Assembly: GCA_020831485.1 (NCBI GenBank)
Contig: JAFIGG010000001.1
Coordinates: 124,001 to 188,000 of the forward strand
Direction of reading: 5' to 3'
DNA: 64,000 nucleotides
Source: Opitutales bacterium
Lineage (GTDB): Bacteria > Verrucomicrobiota > Verrucomicrobiia > Opitutales > Oceanipulchritudinaceae
How positions within the stretch are numbered: the first letter of the stretch is position 1; every line of letters starts with the position of its first letter. Below, piece after piece: positions 18,543-41,840 of the stretch. The position numbers and the translations under genes are program-made. Below the pieces are notes generated by a model, which saw only the letters and a list, made by a program, of their open reading frames with translations, made no database searches and was not told the DNA's origin.

Positions 18543-21500
18543 CCGCCAACACCCGCACGACTTTGATTCAATGGCAAAAATGCTTTCGAGCCCTGCGGAA
18601 ATGGGCTCTCTACATCCTGATTCCGCTGATCACCATTCAGTGCCTGGCGCTTATCCTGCGCACCGAACTTTCAGACGAGCCACACTCCTACCCCCAAGAG
18701 CTGCTCGACTACCTGGATGACGCACGTCAGTTGCGGGGCCTTCCAGAGGAACTCCCACGCTTTCACATTCCGGTCGATTACGCTGACAGCGAAAGCAGTG
18801 ATTGGTTTCCCAGAGGGCAATCGCCGATTTTCCAAGCCATGGTTGAAGACGGTCTCTTGCCTGAAGTGCATTTACGCACAGGGCCGGAACCCATGGTTCT
18901 GGAGGGTCCGGATGGCATCGGCAACTACGGGGGCACTTGGTTCCGAATCGCGACCAACCCGAGCACCATTCGTTCTGTGCTTGAATGGCGACTCGGCGGG
19001 TTTTCGCTGGTTCGCTGGTCCCCAAAAGGCGAGCCCGTTGTGCCTCATATTGCCAGGGATTGGAGCGCGAACGAGGACGCCACCGAATGGACATTCTACT
19101 TGAGGGAAGGCATTCGCTGGTCCGACGGGCACCCTTTCACCGCTGACGACATCCTCTATTGGTGGCAGGACGAAGTAATGAATCAGCGAATCCGCGGACT
19201 GGCAGCGACCCCTCCGGATTTCATGGTAATCAACGGCCTTGAAGGCCGGATTGAAAAAGTCGACCGCTATACGGTTCGCTTTGTGTTCCCTCTACCCAAT
19301 CCGCTCTTCGTCGAACGCCTCGCGGGCACCTACGTCCGTCCGTTCAGTCCCCGTCACTTCCTGAAACCCTACCATCCCGATTACGGCGATCCGGATTTCA
19401 TGGAGGATGCCCGCCGAGCGCGTGGTTACGGCAATATTGAGCAGCACTACCAATTCCTTCAGGCCCCATCAAGCCTGATACCTGAAATGCCCACGATGAG
19501 CCCCTGGGTGTACCGCTCGTACAGCAGTTCGGGACCCTTCACTTTTATCCGCAACCCCTACTACTGGGCGGTCGACAGCCAGGGCAACCAATTGCCCTAC
19601 ATCGATCGGGTCTTTGTTGAAATCAAATCCCGCGAACTGATTCCCATCGCCGCCTCAAATGGAGAAATCACCTTTCAGTTTCGCTATTTGAGCCATGAGG
19701 ATTATCCCCAACTCATGACCCACAGGGACCGCGGAGACTACGAGGTCCTGCACTGGGTCCCTGGCTACGGCTCGGAATGGACTATCTGGCCGAACCTCAA
19801 CCGGAGGATTGAGCCGGACGACCCATCGACAAAAAAACGCCACGAGCTGCTCAACACCCGTGATTTTCGCCGGGCACTGTCCATCAGCCTCAATCGGCAG
19901 GAAATTATTAATAATTACTACGGTGGCGTCGGTCAACCCGCACAACTGGCACCGCCACGCTATTCGCAATTTTTCCGGCCCTCCCTGCAGACCCGGCACA
20001 CGGAGTTCAATCCAGATGAAGCCCGGAAGATTCTGGACCAGCTGGGACTCGATCAAAGGGATGCAGAGGGATTCCGGACGTTCCCGGATGGTTCAATGAT
20101 GACCTGGTTCATCAACTACATGGATTTCACCGGCGCGGGTCCCGTCGAATTGATCGCCGAATACTGGCGGGATGTTGGATTGAGAGTCATTCCGAGGGAG
20201 CGCGCACGCAATCTGTATGCAATCGAAAGCTCATCGGATCAGCATGACTTCTCCGTAATGGGAGGTGCGTCCGAATTCAACCCACTGCTCGAACCCAGGA
20301 GTTTTGTCCCGGTGCACAGCGCTAGTTTGTTCGCTCCTCGCTATGGCCGCTGGTACGCAGGCGGAGGCATGCACGGCAACCCGGATGCGCTGCGGGCCGG
20401 AAGGCCTCCACCGGAAGATCACCCGCTGCGGGAGAGCATGGAGGTGTTGAACCGGGCCAGTCTGACACTCGATCAAGGGGAACGGATCCAGATCTTTGAG
20501 CGAGCCCTGGAGATTGCCGAAGAAGAAATCCTCTCCTTCAGCATTGCCACCGCACCACCCATGCCGGTAGTCACCGACCGCAACCTGCGCAACGTTCCCG
20601 CTACAGCCCTGGTCGATTTTCGGCTTGCGTCGCCCTCCAACACGGCACCAGAGCTCTATTATTTTGAGCAACCGATTCATGGCCGGGGAATTGCCGAACA
20701 GATTCGAGAGGATACCCTCAGCCCGAAGCGGTCGCCAAGAGTTGAGCAAATTGCTTCAGCAGCGGACGGGTCTACTTCCAAATGGCGCCCCTTTCTTCAT
20801 TTCCTATGGATCGGCGGGCTGATTGGTGGAACCCTCGTGACCGCTATTCGGTTTCCTTTCATCGGTCGTCGATTATTGATCATGCTGCCGACCCTGGGGG
20901 TTATTTCATTCGCCTGCTTTGCCATCATTCAGATGCCGCCCGGCAATTACGTCGAAACCCAGATCCTGATGCTGCAGATGCAGGGTGCCCCAACCTCTGA
21001 AGATGAAGTGGCCCACCTGCGGGAACTCTACCACCTGGACGAACCTTTTCTCCAGCAATACGCACGCTGGGTGGGTTTGTATTGGTTCACCTCATTCTCA
21101 GCAGAAGACACCGGCTTGTTGCAGGGCGACCTCGGTCGCTCAATGGAGCATGGAGTATCCGTCAATCAACTAGTGGGAGACCGGATTCTCCTGACACTGC
21201 TGATATCCATTGGAACGATTTTGTTTACCTGGATTGTAGCTTTACCCATTGGCATCTATTCAGCGCTTCGACCCTATTCGCTCGGAGACTATGTAGCCAC
21301 ACTCATTGGGTTTATTGGCATGTGCATTCCCAATTTCCTGCTCGCATTGCTGGTGATCTACTGGAGTAACCATTTTCTGGGCATACAGGTAACGGGACTG
21401 TTTTCCTCTGAATACGCTGCACAACCCTTCTGGAACCTGGCTAAGGTTTGGGACTTCCTCAAACACGTCTGGGTTCCAGTGCTGGTGCTGGGCATTACCG

Positions 21501-21880
21501 GAACGGCCGGCATGATTCGTGTCATGCGGGGCAACCTGATGGATGAGCTGCGCAAGCCCTACGTCACCACGGCCCGGGCAAAAGGCGTGCGACCAATGAA
21601 ACTGGTTCTCAAATACCCGGTCCGCATCGCTCTCAACCCGTTTATTTCCGGCATCGGAATGATTTTTCCACACATTATTTCAGGCGGTGCAATCGTCTCC
21701 ATCGTATTGAGCCTGCCCACCGTAGGACCCATGATGCTGACCGCGCTGATGACTGAAGACATCTATTTCGCCGGCTCACTTCTAATGATCCTCGGCTTCC
21801 TGGGAGTGATCGGAACACTTGTCAGTGACCTGCTTCTCATGTGGCTGGATCCACGCATCCGCATGGAAGGTAAATCTTGA
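18536..21880 (+). CDS. ABC transporter family-5 binding protein fused to DppB/OppB-type permease
   Basis: A 1114-residue natural fusion. An N-terminal anchor (about 20-42, WALYILIPLITIQCLALIL) leads into a periplasmic family-5 solute-binding domain (about 110-700) with WTFYLREGIRWSDGHPFTADD and RNPYYWAVDSQGNQLPYID. An extra transmembrane helix (about 750-770) returns the chain to the cytoplasm. From about 776 a complete DppB/OppB permease follows (RRLLIMLPTLGVISF, GDLGRSM, RVMRGNLMDELRKPYVTTARAKG with the EAA loop). Binding protein and permease are normally separate. The topology is self-consistent, and no stop or frameshift lies between them. The other importer parts follow directly. Family-5 systems move peptides or oligosaccharides; the dehydratase next door suggests oligosaccharides here. 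Confidence 0.88.
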   Translation: MVTANTRTTLIQWQKCFRALRKWALYILIPLITIQCLALILRTELSDEPHSYPQELLDYLDDARQLRGLPEELPRFHIPVDYADSESSDWFPRGQSPIFQAMVEDGLLPEVHLRTGPEPMVLEGPDGIGNYGGTWFRIATNPSTIRSVLEWRLGGFSLVRWSPKGEPVVPHIARDWSANEDATEWTFYLREGIRWSDGHPFTADDILYWWQDEVMNQRIRGLAATPPDFMVINGLEGRIEKVDRYTVRFVFPLPNPLFVERLAGTYVRPFSPRHFLKPYHPDYGDPDFMEDARRARGYGNIEQHYQFLQAPSSLIPEMPTMSPWVYRSYSSSGPFTFIRNPYYWAVDSQGNQLPYIDRVFVEIKSRELIPIAASNGEITFQFRYLSHEDYPQLMTHRDRGDYEVLHWVPGYGSEWTIWPNLNRRIEPDDPSTKKRHELLNTRDFRRALSISLNRQEIINNYYGGVGQPAQLAPPRYSQFFRPSLQTRHTEFNPDEARKILDQLGLDQRDAEGFRTFPDGSMMTWFINYMDFTGAGPVELIAEYWRDVGLRVIPRERARNLYAIESSSDQHDFSVMGGASEFNPLLEPRSFVPVHSASLFAPRYGRWYAGGGMHGNPDALRAGRPPPEDHPLRESMEVLNRASLTLDQGERIQIFERALEIAEEEILSFSIATAPPMPVVTDRNLRNVPATALVDFRLASPSNTAPELYYFEQPIHGRGIAEQIREDTLSPKRSPRVEQIASAADGSTSKWRPFLHFLWIGGLIGGTLVTAIRFPFIGRRLLIMLPTLGVISFACFAIIQMPPGNYVETQILMLQMQGAPTSEDEVAHLRELYHLDEPFLQQYARWVGLYWFTSFSAEDTGLLQGDLGRSMEHGVSVNQLVGDRILLTLLISIGTILFTWIVALPIGIYSALRPYSLGDYVATLIGFIGMCIPNFLLALLVIYWSNHFLGIQVTGLFSSEYAAQPFWNLAKVWDFLKHVWVPVLVLGITGTAGMIRVMRGNLMDELRKPYVTTARAKGVRPMKLVLKYPVRIALNPFISGIGMIFPHIISGGAIVSIVLSLPTVGPMMLTALMTEDIYFAGSLLMILGFLGVIGTLVSDLLLMWLDPRIRMEGKS

Positions 21881-23013
21881 GCGTTATGGATCAGGACATG
21901 CTTCAATCATCGGAAAAGGCGACCCAGAGTCAATGGGCACTCATTCGGCGGCGTTTCTTCCGCCACAAACTGGGCGTCATTTCCCTGGCAACACTGATCA
22001 TATTGTATGTCGTTGCAGTGTTTGCAGAATTTTTCTCACCCTACCCGCCGGGGCATCGCAACCCGGATACACCGTATGCCCCTCCACAGACCGTTCGATT
22101 CTCCTTCGAACATGGCTTGCACGCCAAAGCCCAGGTTCCCAACATTGATCCGGTAACGCTCAATCATTACTACACAATCAGCGACGAGGTGGTCCCGCTG
22201 GGCTTCTTTGTGCGCGGTGAACCCTACCGCCTATGGGGGCTTTTCGAATGGGACCGGCGCTTTTTCGGTCCGGTAAATTCCGGTAATGGTGACGGGGAAT
22301 CAACACTGGATGCAGGCCTCAACACTTTCTTCTGGCTTGGGTCCGACAAGTTTGGCCGCGATCAGCTCAGTCGTTTGATCGCCGGTTCACGCATCAGCCT
22401 GTCCGTTGGCATGCTGTCGATTTTAGCGACCTTTCTGCTGGGAATCAGCATCGGAGGTATCTCCGGCTACCTTGGAGGGCGGGTGGACAACCTGATTCAG
22501 CGCATTATTGAAATCGTCAACGCTTTCCCGCAGCTTCCACTCTGGCTCGCCTTTGCAGCCGTATTGCCGGGACATTGGTCTTCACTGAGGATCTACTTCA
22601 TGATCACTCTGGTCCTCAGCCTTCTGAACTGGACAGGGCTGGCGCGGACCGTTCGCGGCAAGATCCTTGCGCTTCGAGAGGAGGATTACGCTGTCGCGGC
22701 ACGATTGCTGGGCGCTTCTCATTTCCGCATTCTATTCCGCCATTTGCTGCCCGGCTTCACGAGCCATATAATCGTCACACTGACCTTGAGTATCCCGGTG
22801 ATGATTCTCGGCGAGACGGCCTTGAGTTTCCTTGGCCTGGGATTACGCCCTCCCATCGTCAGCTGGGGCGTCATGCTTCAGGATTGCCTGAACATGGACC
22901 TTGTCGACGCATACCCATGGATCCTCGCACCGGTCTTTTTCATCATCATCACCGTGCTCTCGTTTAATTTCCTCGGCGACGCACTGCGCGATGCGGCCGA
23001 CCCATACCGTTAA
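21877..23013 (+). CDS. ABC transporter permease, DppC/OppC type
   Basis: A 378-residue inner-membrane permease. An N-terminal cytoplasmic stretch and TM1 (LGVISLATLIILYVVAVFAEFF) are followed by a long periplasmic insertion (about 50-140), then the BPD-transport core with GTDxxGRD-like GSDKFGRDQLSR and the EAA loop (LREEDYAVAARLLGASHFRI). It pairs with the permease half of the fusion protein. A TTG start at 21877 overlaps the upstream stop and sits 6 bases after GGAAGG; an ATG at 21886 is the alternative. It is the second membrane subunit of the importer operon. Confidence 0.9.
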   Translation: MSVMDQDMLQSSEKATQSQWALIRRRFFRHKLGVISLATLIILYVVAVFAEFFSPYPPGHRNPDTPYAPPQTVRFSFEHGLHAKAQVPNIDPVTLNHYYTISDEVVPLGFFVRGEPYRLWGLFEWDRRFFGPVNSGNGDGESTLDAGLNTFFWLGSDKFGRDQLSRLIAGSRISLSVGMLSILATFLLGISIGGISGYLGGRVDNLIQRIIEIVNAFPQLPLWLAFAAVLPGHWSSLRIYFMITLVLSLLNWTGLARTVRGKILALREEDYAVAARLLGASHFRILFRHLLPGFTSHIIVTLTLSIPVMILGETALSFLGLGLRPPIVSWGVMLQDCLNMDLVDAYPWILAPVFFIIITVLSFNFLGDALRDAADPYR

Positions 23014-23028
23014 GACAGGTCCAATCCA

Positions 23029-23976
23029 ATGCATGCAAACGTACTCGAAGTCGACCAGTTATCCGTTTCTTTTGATACAGACGATGGCCGCGTCGACGCG
23101 GTCAAAGAGGTTTCTTTTGTCATTCCCCGGGGCAAGTGCGTCGCCTTGGTCGGAGAATCCGGAAGCGGCAAATCCGTCACCAGCTTTTCACTGCTGCGAC
23201 TGATTCAGGATCCAGGCAAGATAACCGGCGGCCATATCCATATCTATCCGGGCGATGAACCTGCAATGGATATCGTTCAGTTGAAAGAAAATGACGAGCG
23301 TCTCTACCACCTTCGTGGAGGTTTGATAAGCATCATCTTTCAAGAGCCAATGACGGCCCTCAGCCCGGTCCACAGCATCGGCAATCAGATTACCGAGGCC
23401 ATACACCTGCACCGGGGCCTCAAAGGCAAACAAGCCGATGCGCTGGCAATAGAAATGTTGCGCCGCGTCGGGATCCCCTCTCCCGAGCAACGTCTGAAGC
23501 AGTACCCGCATGAGTTCTCCGGTGGCATGCGCCAGCGCGTGGTCATCGCGATGGCCCTGGCCTGCGAACCCGAATTGCTGATTGCTGACGAACCGACCAC
23601 CGCACTGGACGTCACCATTCAGGCACAGATCCTACGCCTAATCAAGAACCTGCAAAAGGAGACCGGAACCAGTGTGCTTTTCATTACTCATGACATCGGG
23701 GTCGTTGCTCAGGTGGCGGACGAGGTCTGCGTCATGTACAAGGGTCGGATTGTCGAATCCGGAACCGTGCGCGAAGTCCTTAAAAAACCCATTCACCCCT
23801 ACACAAAAGGCCTGTTGTCTGCAATCCCTGGACTCCATCAACCGGGCGAGCGCTTGCCGACAATTGATCAGGTGCTGGCGGGAAAAGACATCGCCACGCC
23901 GCACCCAATGGTAAGCCTTCCGGGCGGCCGCAAAGTCGCCTGGCCCGAAGCAGAAATACCCGCTGAATACCGATGA
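23029..23976 (+). CDS. ABC transporter ATP-binding protein, DppD/OppD type
   Basis: A 315-residue ATPase. Walker A GESGSGKS at about 42-49, Q-loop [11 protein letters not shown], signature FSGGMRQR, Walker [13 protein letters not shown] and switch His in FITHDIG are all intact. The C-terminal extension ([21 protein letters not shown]) is that of oligopeptide/dipeptide-type ATPases, which often carry an iron-sulfur Cys cluster; those cysteines are not evident here. It powers the importer together with the following DppF-type ATPase, whose ATG overlaps its stop by 4 bases. Confidence 0.92.
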
Positions 23977-24902
23977 CCCCAGCCGATTCAAAACAGTCTG
24001 AGCGCCTTCCTTTGCTGGAAGTCAAAAACCTGTGCAAATTCTTCCCGCTCAAAAAAGGGCCCTGGTGGAAACCCAGGGCCGAACCCCTGCGTGCGGTCGA
24101 TGACATTTCGTTTACCCTCATGCCGGGCGAGACCTTGGGCATTGTCGGTGAATCCGGAAGCGGAAAAACAACCGCAGCGAGGTCCATTCTGAGAGCCATT
24201 GATCCGACCTCCGGAGAAGTCTGGTTCAACAGCGATCGCCTCGGCCCCATCGATCTCGCACAGTTGAGCCCGAAGGCGCTCAAGCCGCTGCGCCAGGAAA
24301 TGCAGATGGTGTTCCAGGACCCATTCTCGTCGCTGAACCCCCGCTTGACCGTTGGAGAAACCGTTGCCGAACCCCTGCAGATACATGGACTTGGACGGCG
24401 CGGAGAAATCCGCGACAAGGTCGTCGACATGCTCGAACGCGTCGGCCTACAAGCCGACCACTACCAACGCTACCCCCATGCCTTTTCCGGCGGTCAACGC
24501 CAGCGCATCGGAATTGCGCGCGCACTGGTCATGCGTCCGAAGCTCATCGTCGCGGATGAAGCCGTTTCCGCTCTCGACGTGAGCGTCCAGGCACAGGTGA
24601 TCAATCTGCTCAAGGATTTACAGGATTCGTTTAACCTGACCTACATCTTTGTCGCCCACGACCTATCCGTGGTACGCCATATCTGCAACCGTGTAGCCGT
24701 TATGTACCTCGGCAAGATCGTTGAATTCGGCCCGACCGAAAGTGTCTTCAACGATCCGCACCACCCCTACACGAAGGCTTTGCTCAGCGCCATTCCAATG
24801 CCCGATCCAGACATCCCACTCAATCCTGAGCTGAACGACGAAATCGGCGACCCCAGCCGATTTAAAGGTTTGAACGTGGAACCCTATTTTCACGCAAGCT
24901 GA
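23973..24902 (+). CDS. ABC transporter ATP-binding protein, DppF/OppF type
   Basis: A 309-residue ATPase with Walker [11 protein letters not shown]-loop [12 protein letters not shown], signature [15 protein letters not shown], Walker [15 protein letters not shown] (Ala in place of the common Pro after Glu) and switch His in FVAHDLS. The C-terminal [16 protein letters not shown] tail is typical of OppF/DppF. It is the last gene of the rightward importer operon (dehydratase, binding protein-permease fusion, permease, two ATPases) and ends tail-to-tail with the PHP gene, overlapping it by 13 bases. No terminator is visible at this junction. Confidence 0.92.
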
Positions 24903-26128
24903 CCGGGAATCACCGGCTGCATCCAGGCTCGCTCAATTTCTCCTTCCGAAGAATAATTGGATTTGAGTCGAGATGATAATACCTCGGCTCTCACATACAA
25001 TTCGTCGCCCTGAAATTCATAACGTGCCTCATGGCCTTCATACTCAGCAAGAACCTCTCCGATGTCTGAGGAATATATGCGAGTCCGGCCTGTTACAATC
25101 TGACTATCGGGCTGTCGAAAAGGCTCACTCGACGGGTCGTAACCTTTCCTCGTCCCAATAAAACGAATCCTGTAATCAACACCGGCTTCAGCCTCAACTG
25201 AAATAGTGTAATGACTGGCGTCTACACTGATCGAATTTATTGAAACGCCATTGCTTGCATAAAAATGTCCTTTGCGGATACTGTCTATAATCGTTTCAGA
25301 ACTCAGAGAACTACAGCTGACACAAATCCATCCACGCCCCGGACGTCCCACATCCGAGTCACTTGTTTCATAGTTATGGGTATCATCTACACCCGTTGCA
25401 TAGACCAGCCCCAATCCCAACTCAGCAATACGTTTCGTTAATACGATATCCCATACGCGGCCTACCTCCAAAACTCCATCCTCACTGCCGAAATTGACTG
25501 CTCCCCTGAATCCGTTGTAGACCTCGATCAGCTCCAGGTTTTCGACCGGGGCGATACCTTCTGCAGTTGTCGCGTTGCGAAAGTTTGGATGATTGAGCTG
25601 AGCAAGCGTTGGCCGGCCAAGATTCCTGGATGTCTTGTTCACAGCTTCAACGTTTTGCCTGATTGTCTCCTCAACGGAGCTTGCGCGTATCGGTTCTATA
25701 GGGCTTTGAACATTATACGCATTGATGTGGATGCTTGGATCGCTCTGGGTAATTTCCACGCCTTCCAAAAGCAAGAATCGATTTTTTTCCTCAAAAAGGC
25801 CTCTAAATTCGGCCAGAGATTTTAACCTCACCTCGATGTTTCCCTCATCATCGATTCTTTGTTCCACCCAGTCTCTTCCCAGTTTTTGACGGTATAGCTC
25901 GACCACTCCAAGCCCCCCTCCTCTCTGAGCAAAAGGATTCGTCTCCGGAGTGATCCAATTCTCTCCAGTCTGACACTTATTATGGTCTGTAAGGCACAGG
26001 AAATGGTACCCCAAATCCTTGTACACCTGAGTCACAATCTCCGGAAACTGGTCACCATCCGACAAAAGCGTGTGCGCGTGTATGTTTCCCTTCCACCAGG
26101 GACTCCGACTGCTGTTCCATATTTTCAT
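24890..26128 (-). CDS. PHP-domain phosphoesterase-like protein
   Basis: A protein of 412 residues from the ATG at 26128 (MKIWNSS). The PHP metal motif H-x-H appears as [14 protein letters not shown] near residue 15-28, with CLTDHN, LEGVEIT, LNHPNF and ATGVDDTHN later, the usual metal-binding order of PHP phosphoesterases. These act on phosphate esters or related substrates and are often found in carbohydrate clusters. No signal peptide is seen. The open frame continues upstream to 26329, but that part is translated from the GATCAAGA repeat and is not protein-like, so it is excluded. The gene is convergent with the importer operon. Confidence 0.8.
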
Positions 26129-26575
26129 ATTCACAAAAATGCAAACACTTACATAACAATAACGCCAGGGAGGTGTCAAGCCTGGGTTGAGCAGCGAAAC
26201 TAACGAGGGTGCAATCAAGATCAAGAGGAAGGATTTCTGACATCTCCATTCTTGATCTTGGTTCTTTATCTTGATCTTGATCCCCCGGATAAAGAATAAG
26301 AATCGGACTGGAATTTGAGCTGCTACCAAGTGTGATTGCGCGACGAAGTGACCTTTTCAGATCAAGATCAAGACCCAAGAAAAAGATCAAGAGGAAGGAT
26401 TTCTGGCATCTCCATTCTTGATCTTGGTTCTTAATCTTGATCTTGATCCCCCGGATTTTGAGGGGAAAACATGCGAATTTACGGATTTGGGAATCCATGA
26501 TAACGATTCAGAGTGAATACATTTTAGATTGAAAATTTCTTGCTTATTTAATAACGTTTTAAAAATAAGTAATTA
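26129..26575. repeat. Intergenic repeat island, left side of S23 gene
   Basis: This stretch holds no recognisable gene. It contains two directly oriented copies of a structured repeat (26212-26290 and 26360-26456), each beginning and ending with GATCAAGATCAAGA / TCTTGATCTTGATC-like arms that can pair into a long hairpin. The first copy is followed by a tail beginning AAAGAATAAGAATCGGACTG (26291-26340), the second by a tail beginning TTTTGAGGGGAAAACATGCG (26456-26494). The last 60 bases before the S23 ATG are strongly AT-rich compared with the neighbourhood. Confidence 0.8.
26360..26456 (+). repeat. GATCAAGA structured repeat, copy 2 (full length)
   Basis: A full-length copy of the dispersed element. 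The outer arms GATCAAGATCAAGA and TCTTGATCTTGATC are exact inverted complements, and an inner pair (AAGATCAAGA with TTCTTGATCTTG) nests inside. Other copies in the same direction are at 26212-26290 (5' truncated), 26980-27077 and 27157-27240, and an inverted one at 41775-41840. Confidence 0.85.
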
Positions 26576-26944
26576 ATGCAAATTATATTTGATCATGAAA
26601 AACTGCACGTTTATCAGCTATCCCTCGATTTTGTTGCATTTTCCGAGGAATTGCTGGTCGATATTCCCTCTCGAATTGCGTCGCGCGACCAATTGGAGAG
26701 GGCTTCGACATCAATCCCCCTTAATACAGCCGAAGGTAACGGAAAATCAACAGTGAAGGACCGGTGCCGGTATTTCTATAATGCCAGAGGTTCTGCATTG
26801 GAATGTGCAGCATGTTTAGATGTTCTGACGCGAAAGAGGCTTATAAAGGAGGAAAAATCGATAATCGGAAAAGACATGCTTAAAGAAATTGTTTCAATGT
26901 TAGTAGGGCTAATTCGAAGCCAAGACGGTGATTGGGAATGCTGA
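26576..26944 (+). CDS. Four-helix-bundle protein (S23 / 23S rRNA intervening-sequence protein family)
   Basis: A 122-residue protein of the S23 family (TIGR02436-type four-helix bundle). It shows the N-terminal FDHEKLHVYQLSLDF, central RASTSIPLNTAEGNGK and RYFYNARGSALECAACLDVL that define the family. Members were first found encoded in intervening sequences of 23S rRNA; a function as RNA- or DNA-binding chaperone has been proposed but is not settled. Here there is no rRNA. The gene sits inside an array of structured repeats, and its last codons already belong to a 176-bp direct repeat (26934-27109 and 27110 onward). Base composition is AT-richer than the surrounding genes, which suggests acquisition with the repeat element. 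Confidence 0.88.
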   Translation: MQIIFDHEKLHVYQLSLDFVAFSEELLVDIPSRIASRDQLERASTSIPLNTAEGNGKSTVKDRCRYFYNARGSALECAACLDVLTRKRLIKEEKSIIGKDMLKEIVSMLVGLIRSQDGDWEC

Positions 26945-27307
26945 TTCCGATTGAGGTCGTGACTTGGATTGACCTTCTGAGATCAAGATCAAGACCCAGG
27001 AAAAAGATCAAGAGGGAGGATTTCTGACATCTCCATTCTTGATCTTGATTCTTTATCTTGATCTTGATCCCCCGGATTTTGAGGGGAAAACATGCGAATT
27101 TACGGATTTGGGAATGCTGATTCCGATTGAGGTCGTGACTTGGATTGACCTTCTGAGATCAAGATCAAGACCCAGGAAAAAGATCAAGAGGGAGGATTTC
27201 TGACATCTCCATTCTTGATCTTGATCTTGATCCCCCGGATAAAGAATAAGAATTGGACTGGAATTTGAGCCGCTAACAAGTGTGATTACACCCAACTAAC
27301 GAACCTT
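26945..27307. repeat. Intergenic repeat island, right side of S23 gene, with 176-bp direct repeat
   Basis: No gene is seen here. A unit of 176 bp starting GGGAATGCTGATTCCGATTG at 26934 is repeated from 27110; each unit contains one GATCAAGA structured repeat (26980-27077 and 27157-27240). The second core is about 12 bases shorter because one arm segment is missing. The last copy is followed by the AAAGAATAAGAATTGGACTG tail that also follows copy 1 on the far side of the S23 gene. The tail order is therefore A, B, gene, B, A, consistent with one repeat element having inserted into another. Confidence 0.85.
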
Positions 27308-28618
27308 TCATTTCCATGCCGATCCATTTTCAAAATCAAAACGGGCCAATGACTCCGGTTTCATTTCGATGCTGAAACCCGGTGCCCGGGGCAGCTGGTA
27401 ACAGCCCTTGTGAATCCGCACTGGGTCGACAAAGTGCTCGTGCAGGTGGTCGACGTATTCAAGCATGCGACCTTCGCGTTTTCCGCTGATGGCGACGAAG
27501 TCGAGCATCGAAAGGTGCTGGACGTATTCACACAGGCCGACACCCCCCGCGTGTGGACAAACGGGCACTCCGTATTTGGCTGCCAGCAGAAGGATGGCCA
27601 GGTTTTCATTCAAACCACCAACCCGGCAGGCATCGATTTGACAAACCCCCATAGCCTCCGCCTGCAGAAACTGCTTGAACAGGATGCGGTTGGCACAGTG
27701 TTCGCCGGTGGCCACCTTTATTGGCTGCACGGCCCTGGCGATCTCCGCATGCCCGAGGACATCGTCCGGGTGCGTGGGCTCCTCAATCCAAAGGGGATTG
27801 TAGACAGCCAGTTCCCGCATGTTGGCAATGGCTTCCGCTACTTCCCACTTCTGGTTGGCATCCATCATCAGGATTCTGTCGGCTCCAATCTCGGCGCGAA
27901 TCAACTGCGCCCGCCGAAGGTCATCCTGCAAATCCGCACCCACCTTCATTTTGAAACCGGTCCAGCCGTCTGATACGGCTTCCCGGCAGAGTTGCTGAAT
28001 GCGCTCATCGCTGTAACCCAGCCAGCCCACCGAGGTGGTATAAGCCGGATAGCCCGATCGCTCAAGCACCTCAATTCTTACGGCTTTTCCCGCTTCAGCG
28101 CTTTCGAGCAGCTCCAGGGCTTCGGCCCGGCTCAAGGCGTTGCCCAGGTAACTCAGGTCCACACATTTAAGGATTTGTTCCGGACGCATTTCCGCCACAA
28201 GGCGCCACAGCGGCTTGCCTTCAACCTTTGCATACAAGTCCCAGATGGCATTGATCAGAGCACCCAAGGCCATGTGCACGACCCCTTTATCCGGTCCCAG
28301 CCAACGGATCTGGCTGTCACCGTTCAAGTGCTTCCAGAAGCCACCAAAATCCTCCGTAATCGCGGCCAGTTCCATACCAACAATCTGGGCTGAAAACTGC
28401 CTCAGGGCCGCACAACAAAGGTCGTTGCCACGTCCAATTGTGAAGGCCAATCCATGCCCCTGACAGGCCGAATCGTCTGTTTTGAGGATGAGGTAAGCGG
28501 CCGAATAATCCGGATCCTTGTTCATCGCATCCGACCCGTGTGCGCCCAGGCTCGTGGGAAAGCGGATGTCACGCACCTTGTAGTTGCGAATAGTGATGCC
28601 CTTTCCACGCATTGCCAT
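27308..28618 (-). CDS. L-fuconate dehydratase (enolase superfamily)
   Basis: A protein of about 436 residues that matches the L-fuconate dehydratase family along its length: GHGLAFTIGRGND early, TTSVGWLGYSDE, the K-x-K base in GFKMKVG, metal ligands in MMDANQKW, WIEEPTHPDD and VATGEHC, and the catalytic His in CPHAGGVGLCEYVQHLSM. It dehydrates L-fuconate to 2-keto-3-deoxy-L-fuconate in the cytoplasm, feeding a lyase or dehydrogenase route to pyruvate plus lactaldehyde or lactate. ATGs at 28618 and 28612 are both possible; an upstream TTG (28657) is unlikely. It is divergent from the hydroxyacid dehydrogenase gene and shares its 83-bp promoter region. Confidence 0.88.
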   Translation of the reverse strand: MAMRGKGITIRNYKVRDIRFPTSLGAHGSDAMNKDPDYSAAYLILKTDDSACQGHGLAFTIGRGNDLCCAALRQFSAQIVGMELAAITEDFGGFWKHLNGDSQIRWLGPDKGVVHMALGALINAIWDLYAKVEGKPLWRLVAEMRPEQILKCVDLSYLGNALSRAEALELLESAEAGKAVRIEVLERSGYPAYTTSVGWLGYSDERIQQLCREAVSDGWTGFKMKVGADLQDDLRRAQLIRAEIGADRILMMDANQKWEVAEAIANMRELAVYNPLWIEEPTHPDDVLGHAEIARAVQPIKVATGEHCANRILFKQFLQAEAMGVCQIDACRVGGLNENLAILLLAAKYGVPVCPHAGGVGLCEYVQHLSMLDFVAISGKREGRMLEYVDHLHEHFVDPVRIHKGCYQLPRAPGFSIEMKPESLARFDFENGSAWK

Positions 28619-28701
28619 CTCAACAGACACAAAAGTTGACCCACACAGCAAAGGCAAACACTATCATACACAACAAGCTCAAAACTTTAAATCTGCGTAT
28701 T

Positions 28702-29688
28702 ATGCAACATCGATCCCTCAGTCTCGGACTGGAAACCGAGGCCCTTTCTTCGGAACAATGGCGTCAAGTCTCTGTACTGGCGAAGCAACTCAGGCTGAGC
28801 CTGAAGCACTTTGCAACGGCAGCAGAACGCGACGCTGCCGACCTGAGCGATGCTGAAATCATCATCGGTTCATTCCCTCCAAAAGCCCTGCTCAAAGCGC
28901 ACAAGCTGAAATGGCTTCAACAGATAAGCAGTGGCATCGACTGGTTACTCGATCAGCCTGAATTGCGGAACCGAGCCTTTGTCCTTACCAACGGTTCCGA
29001 TGCCAACTGCGTCCCCCTCGCGGAGCATGCGATGATGGGCTGGTTGGCATGGGCGCGACACTTTCCTCAGGCGATGGAAGCCCAACACAAAAGGGAATGG
29101 AGTCCCCCGCCCCGGAAAGAAGAGGTCTTCGAAATTGCCAACAGCACCCTCCTGATTGCCGGGATGGGATCCATTGGAAAGCATCTGGCAAGCATCGCTA
29201 AAGGCTTTGGCGCCAGAACCCTGGCCTTGCGCAATCGACCTGGAGGCAAACACAAACCCGATGCGATCGATGAAGTCTACCCTTCCAGCAACCTGCTGCA
29301 AATCCTGCCCGAAGCCGATGCAATCGTGAACACATTGCCCTATACCCCGGACACGCATCATTTGTTCGACCGCAAAGCCTTTGAGTCGATGAAACCTTCG
29401 GCGATCTTTATCAATGTCGGCCGCGGCAAAACCGTCAATGAGACCGATCTGGCAGAGGCACTCAACAGCAAGCAGATTTACGCCGCCTGCCTCGACGTTT
29501 TCCAACAGGAACCGCTACCGCCCGAATCACTCCTCCGCAGCTGCAGAAACCTCCTGATCACAAGTCACTACGCATGGTACACACCCCATTTCAAAACACG
29601 CATTGCCGAATTGATCGTCGACAACCTCAGCCGTTACGCCAATGGCCGGGAACTGCGAAACGTTGTTGATAAACATAAATGTTATTGA
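28702..29688 (+). CDS. D-2-hydroxyacid dehydrogenase
   Basis: A 328-residue D-2-hydroxyacid dehydrogenase. The Rossmann motif is GMGSIGKHLA; the catalytic residues are Arg in INVGRGK, Glu in FQQEPLP and His in TSHYAWYTP. The ISSGIDWLL segment fits the glyoxylate/hydroxypyruvate reductase subgroup rather than phosphoglycerate dehydrogenases. ATG 28702 (MQHRSLSLG) is chosen; an open frame extends to 28612 but would overlap the divergent fuconate dehydratase start. It probably interconverts lactate, glycolate or glycerate with the matching keto acid from sugar-acid breakdown. The substrate is unproven. Confidence 0.85.
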   Translation: MQHRSLSLGLETEALSSEQWRQVSVLAKQLRLSLKHFATAAERDAADLSDAEIIIGSFPPKALLKAHKLKWLQQISSGIDWLLDQPELRNRAFVLTNGSDANCVPLAEHAMMGWLAWARHFPQAMEAQHKREWSPPPRKEEVFEIANSTLLIAGMGSIGKHLASIAKGFGARTLALRNRPGGKHKPDAIDEVYPSSNLLQILPEADAIVNTLPYTPDTHHLFDRKAFESMKPSAIFINVGRGKTVNETDLAEALNSKQIYAACLDVFQQEPLPPESLLRSCRNLLITSHYAWYTPHFKTRIAELIVDNLSRYANGRELRNVVDKHKCY

Positions 29689-29708
29689 TCGCGGGTCTTG
29701 CCGTTAAA

Positions 29709-29740
29709 CAAAAAAAAGCCGGAGGGAAACCCCTCCGGCT
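29709..29740 (-). terminator. Rho-independent terminator of the TonB receptor gene
   Basis: A perfect 10-bp stem AGCCGGAGGG / CCCTCCGGCT (29717-29726 and 29731-29740) with a 4-base loop. On the minus strand it is followed by a run of T (A-run at 29709-29717 on the plus strand). It lies 46 bases beyond the TonB receptor stop and so ends that leftward transcript. It may also end the convergent dehydrogenase transcript, but no T-run follows in that direction. Confidence 0.85.
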
Positions 29741-29786
29741 GAACAATCGCTTAACTTTATCCTATGACTCCAAACAACCAGACATA

Positions 29787-32207
29787 TCAGTAGCTAAACG
29801 TAACAGAAAGCAATGCAGAGAATGGCATCATAGGCGCACCACCGTTCGACTCCCAATCCGTGTTGAGAGCATTCTGTATCGACAGGTTAATGCTTGTATC
29901 AACATTCCGAACCCAATCCACCTTATACCCAATCAAGGCGTCGACAACAAACTGGCTGTCTACGTCTGTTTGGAACAGGGGGTTCGCATGGGCAACGATT
30001 GAAGAAGTCTGATAGCGAAAACCAGCGCCCAAACTCAAATTCTCCAGAGCACCTTCGCCAAACGTGTATTTATTCCAAAAGTTAGCTATAAATTTTGGAG
30101 TCCTTCCCAACCTCCGATCGAGCAAAATCTCTAGATCTCGGCCTGTGAATGCTGGGTTTTCATTGACCCCCGATTTCCACATGTATGAACCGGAAAAGAC
30201 TGCTTGATACCGTTGATCTCGTGTCGTCCACATGAATTCGAGCTCCATGCCCTCGGTCTCTTCCGCACCACTGATATCATAAAGAATAACATTTGTCGTG
30301 GGATCTCCGTCGTTATTGCGTGGGTCGTCCTGAGTCCTCTGCGTATTCTGATTCCGGATATTGGAACGCTGAACGTTGTAGAATGTGAGGGTCCCTGAAA
30401 GCTGTCCGTCCATCCAATTCGCCTTAATGCCGACATCCACCGAGGATCCCTGTTCGTCCGGCATGTTGTCTACGAAATTATCACTGGGTAGAATTTGAGC
30501 GTTACCTCCTGCGAGGAATACATTCGGCCCATTCGATTGCCACGCCTCACTGGTTCCAGCAAAGAAGCTGAAACCGGGTATGAATTCATAGTTAAAGCCG
30601 AGTGAGTGACTGGTTCCCGTTCGCCGACGGTGGGGCTGTTCGTAGCGAATGCCTGCCATTACCCGCAAACGGTCTTCAAACATGTGCCCCGAATACTGGG
30701 CAAAATAGGCATTGGTCCAATTCGGCGTACCGACTGACTTTGGCTGATGCCCTACCCGGGCAGTCCGAAAATCAAACTGTTCATAACGCAATGGATCGAA
30801 CTCAGCAAACAGTGTATTCGCGTCCACCACAGTTCCGTCTTCCAGAGTTTGCTCGGGAATGCGGGAATTATCAATGCCCTCAGAAGCTTGACGGAAACGG
30901 CTTGCCGTCCGCTGATAGCCGACCAGAAAACGACTCCTCAAAAAGTTCGTTTCATGCTCATACAAGCCATCCACGAAGTGCACGTTTGTCTTTTGATTGC
31001 GGACGAGCCACAAAGCCCTCAACGTGTGTGTCCCCTGACCATGCCAGCTGGTCGCAGGGAAATGCTCATCGGTGTTCATGTCCTGCAGGAAGAAGCGATA
31101 CCGCAACGTTACGCCATCAAAAGGAACAAGATCGATAAAAGTATTAAAGAGGTGCTGATTATACTTCGCAGTGCTCCCAGGTCCGCTGGGGTTGTAATTC
31201 CGGGCATTGCCCGGGACCAGATGGTCCGGAATAACGCCTGAGGTGCCGCGGAACGGGAGCTCCCCGGTAGCGGCCAAGATGTCCTCTTGCCAGACTGGAC
31301 CAATATCGAGTCGCCAGCGATCCTGAACGAACTCAATGGCATCATCGCGATTGGCTATGCCTTCCTCGGCCATGAAGTAATCCACCACAGCATCCGGTGG
31401 ATTCTGAAAGTCCTCCAGTCGCTGCGGATTCAAAGTCGAGCCTCTGTTCGCCCTTTGATGTGAATTATACCACTGATAACTCGTGGTGATACGAAACCTA
31501 TGACCCGGACTCCAACTGAGGCTCGGTGCGACCACAACCTTGTCTTCGAAGGCAAAGTCCGAGAACTCTTTACGGTCGACCCGCGAAAAGACAAGACGAT
31601 GAGCCAGCGTGCCGCCCGCTACTTCACTTGTGCCCTGAGTATCGATGTAACCCCTCTTATCGTCGTATGAACCATAAGACAAGCGAACGCGCGTAGCGTC
31701 CATAAACTGTGGTCTCTTGGAAACGATATTAACGATCCCCCCCGGACGCGTTTGCCCGAAGAAGGTTCCCGTTGGCCCCTTAATGATCTCTACCCGTTCG
31801 GCATTGTCCATCGGGAGACCAAATGCGATGGTCACTCCATCCTGAATGGTAAAAGCCGGAAAACCTCTAATGATCGTTTCGTTGGTACCAGGGAAGAATT
31901 GCTCGCTCCCCTGCGCACCGGCAGTGTAGCGAACGATCTCGTCTTTTGTGTTCAGGTTCAAATCGTTGCGAAAATCCTCGGTAATGACCGAAATCATAAC
32001 CGGAACGTCGTAGATCGCAGCCCCGATTCTCGTAGCTGTAATCGTGTTTGTGGCTCGATAGCCAACATCCTGACGGGCAGAAACCTCAAACGGATTGAGG
32101 TCAACAATATCCCTGGGATCCAAGTCCGCATCCTGCGCACTCGCAATAGGTGTAACAATTAAAAACACCCAAGCAACATGCAGCCAGGCTTTTATGTGTT
32201 TTTTCAT
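29787..32207 (-). CDS. TonB-dependent outer-membrane receptor
   Basis: An 806-residue outer-membrane receptor. A Sec signal peptide (MKKHIKAWLHVAWVFLIVTP to ASA) is followed by a plug domain (PVMISVITEDFRNDL, TNETIIRGF, NAERVEIIKGPTGTFFGQTRPGGIVNIVSKRP) and a 22-strand-type barrel that ends in SVTFSY with a terminal aromatic residue as required for outer-membrane insertion. A possible TonB box lies near DLNPFEVSA. The plug resembles siderophore receptors of the FpvA/FhuA type, but in Verrucomicrobiota such receptors also sit in carbohydrate clusters, so the ligand is open. It is followed by a clear terminator. TonB, ExbB and ExbD are not in the window. Confidence 0.93.
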   Translation of the reverse strand: MKKHIKAWLHVAWVFLIVTPIASAQDADLDPRDIVDLNPFEVSARQDVGYRATNTITATRIGAAIYDVPVMISVITEDFRNDLNLNTKDEIVRYTAGAQGSEQFFPGTNETIIRGFPAFTIQDGVTIAFGLPMDNAERVEIIKGPTGTFFGQTRPGGIVNIVSKRPQFMDATRVRLSYGSYDDKRGYIDTQGTSEVAGGTLAHRLVFSRVDRKEFSDFAFEDKVVVAPSLSWSPGHRFRITTSYQWYNSHQRANRGSTLNPQRLEDFQNPPDAVVDYFMAEEGIANRDDAIEFVQDRWRLDIGPVWQEDILAATGELPFRGTSGVIPDHLVPGNARNYNPSGPGSTAKYNQHLFNTFIDLVPFDGVTLRYRFFLQDMNTDEHFPATSWHGQGTHTLRALWLVRNQKTNVHFVDGLYEHETNFLRSRFLVGYQRTASRFRQASEGIDNSRIPEQTLEDGTVVDANTLFAEFDPLRYEQFDFRTARVGHQPKSVGTPNWTNAYFAQYSGHMFEDRLRVMAGIRYEQPHRRRTGTSHSLGFNYEFIPGFSFFAGTSEAWQSNGPNVFLAGGNAQILPSDNFVDNMPDEQGSSVDVGIKANWMDGQLSGTLTFYNVQRSNIRNQNTQRTQDDPRNNDGDPTTNVILYDISGAEETEGMELEFMWTTRDQRYQAVFSGSYMWKSGVNENPAFTGRDLEILLDRRLGRTPKFIANFWNKYTFGEGALENLSLGAGFRYQTSSIVAHANPLFQTDVDSQFVVDALIGYKVDWVRNVDTSINLSIQNALNTDWESNGGAPMMPFSALLSVTFSY

Positions 32208-32602
32208 AATAATGAGTAGTTCGTATTTTAGTTAAGTCGGTCTGAGAAGGAATTTCTTACCATAAGGCAACCTTCTTGCAGACATAAGAAAAGGTTGGGA
32301 AATACAGGTCAACAAAAAAAAACACTTTTCAACAAAAAGAAACTTGTACCTGCATTCACTTCACTGCCTGCAGACGCTTTGACCTTTTTAAAAAGCAAAC
32401 AAGCGGCACCCTCCCCTTCAAAGACCCTCAAAAATCGCCACCACCCGCGCCGCTCAGGCCGCATAAAAACTGATCCCTTCACCATACCGACCTCATTAAA
32501 CCCTACCCAACGCCAGGCAAACCACCAAACAATCCAACCGTCCACACCAAAAATACTCAAATAAAACACTAATAAACTATTTAGCAGGTTCAAGGAACCC
32601 CC
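32208..32602. other. 395-bp non-coding region upstream of the TonB receptor gene
   Basis: No convincing gene. The part next to the receptor start should hold its promoter and has an inverted pair CAACCTT (32268-32274) / AAGGTTG (32291-32297). A palindrome CTTTTTAAAAAG lies at 32394-32405. From about 32400 to 32602 the plus strand is strikingly rich in A and C with very few G, and short open frames there on either strand read as low-complexity peptides. It could be a degraded region or a structured RNA; I see no direct support for either. Confidence 0.5.
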
Positions 32603-33913
32603 TCAACCCTCAAACAAACCCAGACCGGAACAAGCCTTAACGATACCGTTCTCAATATCAATAAAGTCTGCCTCCGAATACAGCGGCCCAACAGCAATAG
32701 CCACCATCGCAGAAAGGATTCCATCCGTCTCCGGACAGTCCGCCGGACTGTAGCGAACGGCCTCGCCTGGCTGCCCTTTCGCAAATGGAGGCATGGCTGG
32801 ATGCGGCATGCGGCGCTGCTTTACGTAGTCCAGATGCAGCAGATTGACCATACCCGAGGACGGCCCCACCCGTAATCCTTCAGCATTATACGCCTGCGAG
32901 AACAAGCGAGCCTTCTCGCCCGATCCAAAATCAATGAACATTGTTATCCCCAGATCGCCCGCCAGGTCATAACTTTGACGAAAGGAAATCCCAGGCAATC
33001 GCTGTTCGAGGTTTGACCGTAGACGATGCCACCATTTACGGCATTTACTGATCATCCCATCAAGTTTAGCGAACTGTGCGATACCCATCGCTGCGGTGAC
33101 CTCACTGATGCGGAACTGCAGACCAGAGAAACCGCCACTGGAATCGGCCACAATTCCGAGCTCTGAAGGCAATTGCGCAGCGAACACCTCCCGAAGAATT
33201 CCAAGGTCGTGAAAACGCACGGCCCGCTCAAAGATACGGGCGTCTTTGCACAACAGAAAACCGCCCTCACCCGTCGAAAGGATCTTATTCCCCTGCATGC
33301 TGAACACACCGATATCCCCCACAGTTCCCAACTTACGCCCATTCAAACTTCCGCCCATTGCCTGGGCCACATCCTCAACAAGTGCAATGCCCCCGGGGTC
33401 AAGCAGGCCCTTGATCGCTTCGAGATTCGCCGCGCTTCCCTGATAATGGACCACTAGAACCGCCTTGGTTTTTGAGTTCAGCTTTTCCCGCAAGTGGTCC
33501 GCGTCGAGATTCATACTCCGATCAATCTCACAGAAAACCGGCGTTGCACCTGCCAGCACAATTGAATTGTAACAGGAAAACCAACTGAAGGCCGGCAGGA
33601 CAACTTCATCCCCAGGACCAATTCCCAGAGCCGCCCACGCGCACTGCAGCGCCGCAGAACATGAGGTCAGACCCAAGGCATAAGGCACCTCGAAATACGA
33701 CCTCAACAATGCCTCAAAATCATCCGCAAAGTGCGACTTACCCAAGCCGTAATGCCTGAACAGATTGCGGTTTTCGACAACCTTACACAACGCCTCCAGC
33801 TCATCCGCACCCACCGAAGACGCTCCCAGCAAGGCACTCGGCAACGGCTCGGCTCTGATAGCAGCTCCACCATGAAGCGCCAACTTTGGGGTAAATAATT
33901 CATGCCTGTCCAT
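32603..33913 (-). CDS. DegT/DnrJ/EryC1/StrS-family aminotransferase
   Basis: A 436-residue PLP-dependent sugar aminotransferase-type protein. Visible are TSCSAALQCAWAALGIGPGDEVVLPAFSW (phosphate and ring contacts; broken here by the usual family order), LVEDVAQAMGG with the PLP Asp, and the Schiff-base Lys in SMQGNKILSTGEGG. These enzymes transaminate keto sugars, although relatives act on other keto substrates. No other sugar-nucleotide genes are nearby. It is the neighbour of the GntR/LacI-type regulator (58-bp gap, same strand), so it may belong to the sugar regulon or to an inositol-like pathway. Function beyond the family is unknown. Confidence 0.85.
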   Translation of the reverse strand: MDRHELFTPKLALHGGAAIRAEPLPSALLGASSVGADELEALCKVVENRNLFRHYGLGKSHFADDFEALLRSYFEVPYALGLTSCSAALQCAWAALGIGPGDEVVLPAFSWFSCYNSIVLAGATPVFCEIDRSMNLDADHLREKLNSKTKAVLVVHYQGSAANLEAIKGLLDPGGIALVEDVAQAMGGSLNGRKLGTVGDIGVFSMQGNKILSTGEGGFLLCKDARIFERAVRFHDLGILREVFAAQLPSELGIVADSSGGFSGLQFRISEVTAAMGIAQFAKLDGMISKCRKWWHRLRSNLEQRLPGISFRQSYDLAGDLGITMFIDFGSGEKARLFSQAYNAEGLRVGPSSGMVNLLHLDYVKQRRMPHPAMPPFAKGQPGEAVRYSPADCPETDGILSAMVAIAVGPLYSEADFIDIENGIVKACSGLGLFEG

Positions 33914-33971
33914 TATGGTGACAAACAGGAATCAGGCATTCCAACAAAAGACAACAAAATAAGAACAGTTA

Positions 33972-35120
33972 TCAACTCTTTTGTCCGGCCGCTGCCCTCA
34001 TCGATGAGCCCAACTCCAGATTGGGCACCAGCCGAGGCACCGAGTAAGGCTTTTCGTCGATAGCTGCCAAAAGCGTAAAGACCAGCTCCTGGCCCAGCTT
34101 ATAGAGAGGAGGCGATACTTTGGACAGTCCGTCCCAGGGCGCGGGCAAGCTGGGTATCTCCACACCACTCAGAACATTGAAAACAACCGCAAGCGCATCA
34201 GGGACAATCTCCGGAGAAGTTTCCATGACTTCCTTCAGGTTATGAATTGCATAAGTATAAAGAACCAGCAGGCCCGTAACATCGGAATTCTCCCTAAAGT
34301 AAGCCCTGACCTTCTCCGTCTCTAACTCAGGCTCCGAACCGCTGAAGGAAACAATGGCCGACGAAGGAATTGCCAGTCCAAACATTTCCGCAGTTTCCCT
34401 CAAGGCTTCTATCCGAGCTTTGTAGTAGTCGTCCTTTTCGTCATGAATGAACAACCCCACCTTGCGGTGACCTCCAAATTTGAACGCCGAAAGCACCTGA
34501 GAACTGAAGGCATACTCATCGTCGCGAAGAACTGGAATATCCAGGTCCCCGATTCTTCGTATAGTGGTCACCACTTTACAGCCCAGTGCCTGAATACGCC
34601 GCACCAGCGCCACATCACGATTCCCTCTTGCATGCAACCAGACCACCCCATCCGGTTTTTTTTCCTCAATTATTTTATAAAGCTCTTCCTGCTTTTCCTT
34701 GCTGCGGCCAATACCTTCCGGATAGCGCTCAAAAGAAATCGTGACATTCCGATCCTGAGCGGCGAACAGCATCCCTTCAATGATCTTCCCGGTAAACCAG
34801 TACTCATCATTCTTCACAAAATACGGAATCAGGACCAACAGCTCCCTGCGTCCGTTTTTCCTGAAACCCGCAGGCAGAGACTTAATGTAGTACCCGCTGC
34901 CGTGGCGCGCTTCCAACAAGCCTTCATCTTCAAGTATACCCAAGGCCTTGTGCACAGTGGAGAGGCTGTGTCCACTGCGTTTGACTAACTGCCGGATTGT
35001 TGGAAAACGCTGCCCAACCTCCATACCTCTTTCAGCCACATAGGTCTTTAATTCATTCGCGAAATCGCGGTAATGGGGTCCCGAGGCCTCTCCGAAATCC
35101 TGAATGTCTTTGTTCTGCAT
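33972..35120 (-). CDS. GntR-HTH transcriptional regulator with LacI-type ligand domain
   Basis: A 382-residue regulator. Residues about 15-80 form a GntR winged helix-turn-helix (RFPTIRQLVKRSGHSLSTVHKALGILEDEGLLEARHG is the diagnostic segment, read across its length). The remainder is a periplasmic-binding-protein-like sensor of the LacI/GalR type (KKPDGVVWL, HRKVGLFIHDEKDD, VTGLLVLYTYAI), the AraR-like architecture common for sugar control. Its upstream region holds an inverted repeat ACAGTAA-N15-TTACTGT (35214-35242) and a near match to a site upstream of the BMC operon, suggesting autoregulation and control of that operon. The effector is unknown but is probably a sugar or sugar acid. Confidence 0.87.
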   Translation of the reverse strand: MQNKDIQDFGEASGPHYRDFANELKTYVAERGMEVGQRFPTIRQLVKRSGHSLSTVHKALGILEDEGLLEARHGSGYYIKSLPAGFRKNGRRELLVLIPYFVKNDEYWFTGKIIEGMLFAAQDRNVTISFERYPEGIGRSKEKQEELYKIIEEKKPDGVVWLHARGNRDVALVRRIQALGCKVVTTIRRIGDLDIPVLRDDEYAFSSQVLSAFKFGGHRKVGLFIHDEKDDYYKARIEALRETAEMFGLAIPSSAIVSFSGSEPELETEKVRAYFRENSDVTGLLVLYTYAIHNLKEVMETSPEIVPDALAVVFNVLSGVEIPSLPAPWDGLSKVSPPLYKLGQELVFTLLAAIDEKPYSVPRLVPNLELGSSMRAAAGQKS

Positions 35121-41679: not shown

Positions 41680-41774
41680 GGTTGCCGAAAGGATTTGTTG
41701 GGCTGTGGGGGCTGTGGGCTGTAGCGAGCCAACGATAGTGGTTCGTTGGATACGCACAGGCAACCCATCCCAAA

Positions 41775-41840
41775 CCAAGATCAAGAATGGTGATGCCAGA
41801 AATCCTCCCTCTTGATCTTTTTCTGGCGTCTTGATCTCAG
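41775..41840 (-). repeat. GATCAAGA structured repeat, inverted copy
   Basis: Read on the minus strand this matches the core of the repeats around the S23 gene (AAAAAGATCAAGAGGGAGGA, then TTTCTGGCATCACCATTCTT), about 15 kb away and in the opposite direction. Just before it, 41699-41760 holds GGGCTGTGGG repeats and a CCAACGA/TCGTTGG hairpin. No S23 gene is attached here, so it is a solo copy. Confidence 0.8.

Follow-up and report, generated by a model that had tools for sequence, protein, structure and literature searches.

In S23-type intervening sequences (IVS) of 23S rRNA, an open reading frame (ORF) lies in the loop of a stem formed by complementary ends, and the units measure ~430-500 bp (PMC4990558). 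In the Coxiella IVS, as given in the available text of the same paper, GACAGAT heptamers lie directly upstream of the S23 ORF and RNase III cuts in vitro at the start of the first heptamer; its authors argue that in vivo the S23 protein is probably not produced (PMC4990558). S23/IVP genes have also been reported in CRISPR-Cas loci, the available part of one report counting 18 genes, often near cas4 or cas6 (PMC3936711). Thus S23 in rRNA IVS with complementary ends, heptamers in one IVS and IVP genes in cas loci are all known already. Among the papers listed in searches of the open-access literature, none was found that links S23 genes generally with inverted short-period arms, the Coxiella rRNA case being the single precedent, and neither a tie between repeat period and S23 lineage nor filled and empty sites of free-standing units were found there.

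The heptanucleotide short tandem repeats of cyanobacteria are known as STRR, and small non-autonomous hairpin elements as MITEs or REPINs. The STRR and the TAACTGA repeats of the Beggiatoaceae (PMC4679880) resemble the S23 arms described below in being tandem 7-nt units of mostly intergenic location; the S23 arms differ in forming inverted pairs around S23 and in having many different units. In the available portion of the Beggiatoaceae paper, S23 has 0 occurrences (PMC4679880). The dispersed S23-less hairpins, terminal repeats and 9-bp duplication of the genome studied here recall MITEs and REPINs, from which S23 elements are set apart by a protein-coding S23 version and by arms that vary from locus to locus while the period is kept.

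The window, by which we mean the whole stretch of 64,000 nucleotides analysed from an Opitutales bacterium (GCA_020831485.1), contains an S23-bearing unit of 1,087 bp at 26207-27293, its ends being set by comparison with other copies in the genome. Like a 23S rRNA IVS, it carries a PF05635 protein and complementary ends able to form a stem around the ORF. Unlike an IVS, it lies outside any 23S rRNA gene and is composite, having terminal repeats and a 9-bp duplication; no rRNA family match up to E 1 was found at 20000-34000 of the window, and protein genes flank the unit on both sides. The features, in window coordinates, are as follows.

26198-26206, no strand: left target-site duplication copy, AACTAACGA, 9 bp, an exact match to 27294-27302, adjoining the terminal repeat
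26207-26217, plus strand: left terminal inverted repeat, GGGTGCAATCA (pattern GGGTGYAATCA in the genome)
26213-26284, plus strand: hairpin copy 1, with GATCAA arms
26285-26344, plus strand: tail A (GGATAAAGAATAAGAAT...) after hairpin copy 1, its end resembling the right end of the dispersed element (GTGTGATTGC)
26360-26448, plus strand: hairpin copy 2, its 3' half being the S23 upstream arm
26457-26494, plus strand: tail B (GGATTTTGAGGGG...) after hairpin copy 2, including TTGGGAAT at 26487-26494
26576-26944, plus strand: S23 gene (23S rRNA intervening sequence protein, PF05635), 122 aa, four helices
26932-26939, no strand: second TTGGGAAT copy, which with 26487-26494 brackets the S23 core
26940-27115, plus strand: first copy of the 176-bp direct repeat, comprising the S23 3' end, hairpin 3 and tail B
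26981-27069, plus strand: hairpin copy 3, its 5' half being the S23 downstream arm
27116-27291, plus strand: second copy of the 176-bp direct repeat, which includes hairpin 4 and tail A
27157-27232, plus strand: hairpin copy 4
27283-27293, minus strand: right terminal inverted repeat (TGATTACACCC on the plus strand)
27294-27302, no strand: right target-site duplication copy, AACTAACGA, 9 bp, exact
41773-41837, minus strand: further hairpin copy in the window, without S23 and without terminal repeats

The architecture is as an earlier note on this DNA had described it, with four hairpins in the same direction around S23 and tails in the order A-B-gene-B-A (A after copies 1 and 4, B after copies 2 and 3), and with a 176-bp direct repeat whose first copy starts in the final codons of the gene. 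Against the reference copy at 26319-26494, the second repeat copy is 62% identical without gaps. That this repeat structure exceeds chance is borne out by the 89-nt arms around S23 (26360-26448 and 26981-27069), which are 71% complementary, and by the genome's 15 further copies, each 48 nt or longer. The composition is AT-rich as claimed, with 41.1% GC in the unit and 42.8% in the S23 ORF against 54.7% in the window. A check for target-site duplications, which the note had proposed, revealed the exact 9-bp AACTAACGA on both sides of the unit, directly outside terminal inverted repeats of 11 bp; with even base use, the chance of a 9-bp match at two positions fixed beforehand is ~4 in a million. 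In folding predictions for the unit's RNA, the minimum-energy structure consists of separate hairpins and the centroid of a long-range stem.

The S23 core (26495-26939) is flanked by the two TTGGGAAT copies, and a third, uninterrupted copy lies at 27108-27115, at the junction of hairpins 3 and 4. The core therefore looks like an insertion into tail B, with the uninterrupted version preserved alongside. Alternatively, a tandem duplication via 8-bp microhomology may have occurred, which would give an identical picture. Outside the unit, no hairpin match in a nucleotide search of the window's genome reached tail B.

The S23 protein of the window scores 71.9 bits against PF05635 (cut-off 33.8), and its predicted structure is a four-helix bundle with a mean pLDDT of 92. 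Structural matches include S23 proteins (2rld, Z 18.0; 2gsc, Z 17.4) and Avd, the accessory protein of diversity-generating retroelements (8ub8_C, Z 15.5; 4dwl_C, Z 14.4), with which the prediction shares the four-helix fold. Since Z values of 14 are also reached by unrelated helical bundles in that list, the Avd match is weak taken alone; a resemblance between PF05635 and Avd is also stated in the available text of PMC10053308. For Xcc0516, the protein of 2gsc, the title of the cited paper gives a quaternary structure of five four-helix bundles. The window protein differs from Avd in that their identity is ~10% and in its setting: a Pfam scan of seven neighbouring window genes, one of them without any match, found no reverse transcriptase, and the sole RVT_1 match of the genome sits on a different contig. 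A second S23 gene over the cut-off in this genome (L010, contig C141) has 8-nt arms of TGGAATG type and lies between genes for an SBF-family transporter and a low-molecular-weight phosphatase, which may be an arsenic-resistance pair.

The hairpin forms a dispersed family in this genome. A search with 26319-26494 returned 19 primary places, of which the unit holds four and the rest of the genome 15, as well as one 32-nt piece and palindrome self-matches, and the right end of the dispersed element, which matches tail A at 26322-26343 with three mismatches, occurs at 9 places in the 142-contig draft when up to three mismatches are allowed. The pattern GGGTGYAATCA has 12 matches in the genome, of which 11 lie at ends of this element family and the twelfth (C1:7412) is, by eye, apparently part of a coding region; the backwards control pattern has 0. 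A full, S23-less copy on contig C33 retains the two terminal repeats and is flanked by a 9-bp repeat that matches at 8 of 9 positions (by eye), and a copy on C46 has flanking repeats of ~10 bp (by eye). Several other hairpin copies have a different or missing end, some of them a different left end, with no duplication visible. The window's S23 block belongs to a composite constructed with this dispersed S23-less family, whose hairpins share its 6-nt arms. A further difference from MITEs may concern the autonomous partner: in the 142-contig draft, no larger element sharing the unit's ends was found among the places inspected. Y1_Tnp, the type of transposase to which REP/REPIN hairpins are tied through RAYT genes, has four matches in the genome, three over the cut-off, none on a contig with a hairpin match. 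The interval C1:7380-9020 holds a cluster of three GATCAAGA elements together with GACAGGATTAACAGGAT-type repeats.

The genome-wide search for GATCAAGA suggested by the earlier note thus gave a divided answer, in that the family is dispersed over 15 other places and none of them adjoins a PF05635 match. The note had named as its own counter-evidence repeats confined to this site with no other S23-associated copies; in part this is what was found, as there is no second GATCAAGA copy beside S23 in the genome, and in part it is not, as other S23 loci carry arms of their own. Among 16 other genomes of the window's family, the sole hairpin match measured 31 nt. The hairpin family alone is insufficient for the case, which is supplied by the other S23 loci.

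Inverted arms flank S23 genes far more often than other ORFs; within a locus the two arms usually match, and the repeat units differ between loci. In the window's family there are 28 PF05635 matches in 7 of 17 genomes. Over the Pfam cut-off, 17/21 S23 genes had an inverted flank alignment of at least 15 (95th percentile of cross-locus comparisons, 14.65), and the aligned arms were short-period repeats that differed at most loci. Below the cut-off, 0/7 S23-like matches had such an alignment outside open frames. When eight loci, seven sub-threshold and L061, were rescored in-frame, only L012 had arms, of 9 nt; L011 scored 15.4 with 19.0 in its control, and the remaining six scored 10.0 to 13.6, about equal to their controls. 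L012 (C81, ~1300-1820) is a sub-threshold S23-like ORF with its inverted 9-nt arms, of GTCGGACTT type, inside the open frame, and its in-frame arm score is 27.2 versus at most 13.4 in four shifted controls.

A wider set comprised 80 loci from named genomes, being the best 80 of at least 439 relatives of one alignment; 77 were usable, three being dropped for short flanks, and some are near-duplicates by tree (L103/L114). The arm threshold of 16 and the threshold for period labels (a sum of 20, and 1.25 times the next) were chosen by us, and control ORFs were defined by length rather than by a gene finder. Within this best-80 set, 43/77 S23 loci had an arm score of at least 16 versus 18/764 ORFs of the same loci, the control total being 766 less two because two among the 13 best-scoring controls were S23 genes. 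In narrower controls the score was reached by 8/166 ORFs with intergenic space on both sides and by 5/245 of like length. S23 loci with arms occur in 12 of 20 named phyla; 34/77 loci score below 16. At the 55 of 96 loci with arms of at least 16, the median distance to the gene was 34 nt upstream and 16 nt downstream, and the upstream arm had more G than C in 44/55 and more C than G in 8. The strictly best right partner of a left flank among 91 candidates was its own at 46/91 loci, and at 27/47 of those labelled period 7. The units of the two arms agreed within one letter at 23/35 measurable loci, and the 48 seven-nt loci had 42 distinct units.

The reverse comparison gave the same association. 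In 92 loci (1.3 Mb) there were 77 inverted short-period pairs, of which 59 enclosed an S23 ORF, with 5.1 expected under random placement in these loci; several of the 18 pairs without S23 come from loci rich in arrays (L103, L114 and L207, for example). In RNA folds, at least 20 arm-to-arm pairs formed at 51/71 S23 loci versus 59/197 control ORFs (p 1.3e-9). A sense-strand preference, apparent in 12 printed loci, was rejected, since both neighbours were co-oriented at 47/76 S23 loci (those of the 96 for which the two neighbours could be called) and at 360/570 controls, so that there is no pointer there to an RNA-level role. A common motif across the seven-nt units was too weak to retain, at 3.19 bits versus a shuffled mean of 2.93 and a maximum of 3.17. 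The idea of S23 acting on repeats genome-wide was also set aside, period 7-8 arrays in the window's family being too rare to judge, with one in 336 kb of three S23-bearing genomes and 0 in 311 kb of four S23-free ones. In the genome of one relative, a search for (GTAATC)3 that allowed one mismatch gave 10 overlapping matches, all in a single array that is apparently an arm of that relative's own S23 locus. No S23 phage homologue was found among 50,697 records with one S23 query.

The period of the arms is tied to the lineage of the S23 protein. Without a threshold, the best-fit period was 7 at 63/96 S23 loci and 6 at 17/96; among controls, 7 was best for 183/766 ORFs. With thresholded labels, 9 loci have period 6, 48 have 7, 8 have 8, one has 9 and 30 have none. 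In a tree of 93 S23 proteins over 128 columns, many forks of which are unresolved (L071, L079 and L119 were left out for ORF length or stops), the window's protein falls in a clade of 12 members with 100/100 support. Nine of the 12 are labelled period 6, and the remaining three have no label, against 0/81 elsewhere (p 2e-10). Threshold-free, period 6 is best in 12/12 members versus 5/84 others (L079, L081, L116, L119 and L135; p 1e-11), the majority of these 84 having 7. The members come from Verrucomicrobiota, Kiritimatiellota, Bacteroidota, Pseudomonadota, Chloroflexota, Chlamydiota and Planctomycetota, and their units include TTAATC, GTAATC, CTCTTG and CTCATC, which are similar in type to the TTGATC of the window. 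The arms of L010 and of its relative L060 have a period of 8. The GATCAA hairpin is therefore a single case of a broader pattern, in which S23 lies between inverted short-period arms whose period follows the S23 lineage. Since the arms vary in their letters yet hold a lineage-specific period, the protein is suggested to sense spacing or fold, which is the boldest step of the analysis.

In cyanobacterial plasmids the block of arm, S23 and arm is present or absent as a unit, and the same anatomy recurs across phyla. One S23 query matched 45 of 72,556 plasmid records, 34/40 being cyanobacterial among the matches listed; of 12 plasmid loci retrieved, among which are two near-duplicate pairs, 9 had inverted arms of at least 15, with heptamers. 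Five filled sites have empty counterparts in relatives that lack the block and in which the flanking genes are continuous. The contexts are integrase/S23/hypothetical, TraM-like/S23/hypothetical, two adjacent junctions of one gene row, and nrdB/S23/nrdA. The edges lie at or near the arms, and one plasmid junction shows extra sequence beyond the arm. The empty sites reveal no clean constant target duplication, and at several of them a few to ~40 bases are replaced; a short TTCTA repeat at one plasmid site may be part of the arm. An element with CAGGAGT-type arms occurs at three contexts, at which the flanking genes are dissimilar by blastp and blastn and homology stops at the arms; Trichormus and Scytonema share a common context for it. 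In a fourth context (L231) a miniature has lost most of S23; the two ends of the frame are left, along with both arms, so that S23-less derivatives retain their arms. Such filled and empty sites in plasmid operons, along with locus-specific array arms, distinguish free-standing S23 elements from IVS.

At the TraM-like site, one plasmid (L223, ~800-1070) has inverted heptamer arms that enclose other sequence and no S23. The S23 gene of L227 is interrupted (~700-880) by an element that has CAGAAGT-type heptamer arms, a different core and no S23. Two cyanobacterial plasmids (L207 and L212) carry a heptamer-armed S23 gene between cas6 and cas4.

There is good support for the earlier reading of the locus as a free-standing mobile unit akin to the rRNA intervening sequence, namely the terminal repeats and 9-bp duplication of the window unit and the filled and empty sites of units of the same kind in plasmids. 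We think it probable that the unit is among protein genes what the S23 IVS is in rRNA: a free-standing element in which S23 lies between inverted short-period arms and moves with them as a block. Such a unit would insert as a block into intergenic spaces. By analogy with the rRNA IVS in vitro, its arms in RNA would pair into a stem cleavable by RNase III, so that the host could bear an insertion between genes at little cost. The S23 protein may bind this stem or its DNA form, reading periodic shape more than letters, and may act on its own arms as well as those of S23-less derivatives; its role in movement is putative. As no known nuclease is encoded in the element, it would depend on an enzyme from elsewhere for cutting and joining. 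Several results weigh against this reading: the 34/77 loci below the arm threshold, the 59/197 control ORFs whose flanks also pair, strand orientation no different from that of controls, the untidy junctions of the empty sites, the failure to find a larger element with the window unit's ends, the separate hairpins of its minimum-energy fold, the 15 hairpin places with no adjacent S23 match, and the doubt over S23 production in the Coxiella case.

Part of this evidence could be accommodated if the arms were MITE-like hairpins moved by an ordinary transposase in trans, with S23 picked up along the way and having no part in movement or repeats. The transposon-type ends and 9-bp duplication of the window unit, the identical ends of S23-less copies and the lack of an encoded nuclease all speak for this; nevertheless we consider it unlikely, as S23 is repeatedly the enclosed gene (the 59/77 pairs and 12/20 phyla above), the period is tied to the S23 clade, and the arms at other S23 loci vary by locus. 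Still less probable, in our judgement, is selection of the arms as a stem that serves the processing or stability of the S23 transcript, with rare spread by ordinary recombination and no mobile class active in its own right. Although the arm-to-arm pairing in RNA folds and the RNase III processing of the related rRNA IVS (PMC4990558) agree with it, it fits poorly with filled and empty sites whose edges lie at or near the arms, with one element at three contexts, and with a miniature that has kept both arms when most of S23 is gone.

Replication slippage, by which tandem repeats would arise in any intergenic space and their presence at S23 would be incidental, draws on the occurrence of seven-nt repeats away from S23 (period 7 is best in 62/166 intergenic control pairs), yet it leaves unexplained both why the two sides of a gene carry the same unit in inverted pairing and why one S23 clade has a 6-nt period, and background arrays are scarce in the window's family; we regard it as very improbable. 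Going beyond the free-standing S23 element that we favour, S23 elements might constitute a separate, very widespread and autonomous mobile class, in which a single Avd-like four-helix protein recognises the period and fold of the arms rather than their letters, keeps the arms alike, and thereby creates and spreads the so far unexplained heptamer repeats of cyanobacteria and other bacteria. This reading we hold only tentatively and with considerable doubt; under it, each S23 lineage would have its own period (6, 7 or 8 nt) as a geometric characteristic.

In about three decades no agreed function has emerged for S23 proteins, and no maker is known for the heptamer repeats common in bacteria. Should the two prove to be connected, one small unit of ~500 bp would make both questions testable. 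If this is true, S23 units could account for many of the puzzling short repeats in bacterial genomes, and the S23/IVP genes reported within CRISPR-Cas loci (PMC3936711, available text) would be recast; those between cas6 and cas4 in L207 and L212 may simply be insertions. The tie between period and lineage would furthermore amount to a sharp prediction of how the S23 protein sees nucleic acid.
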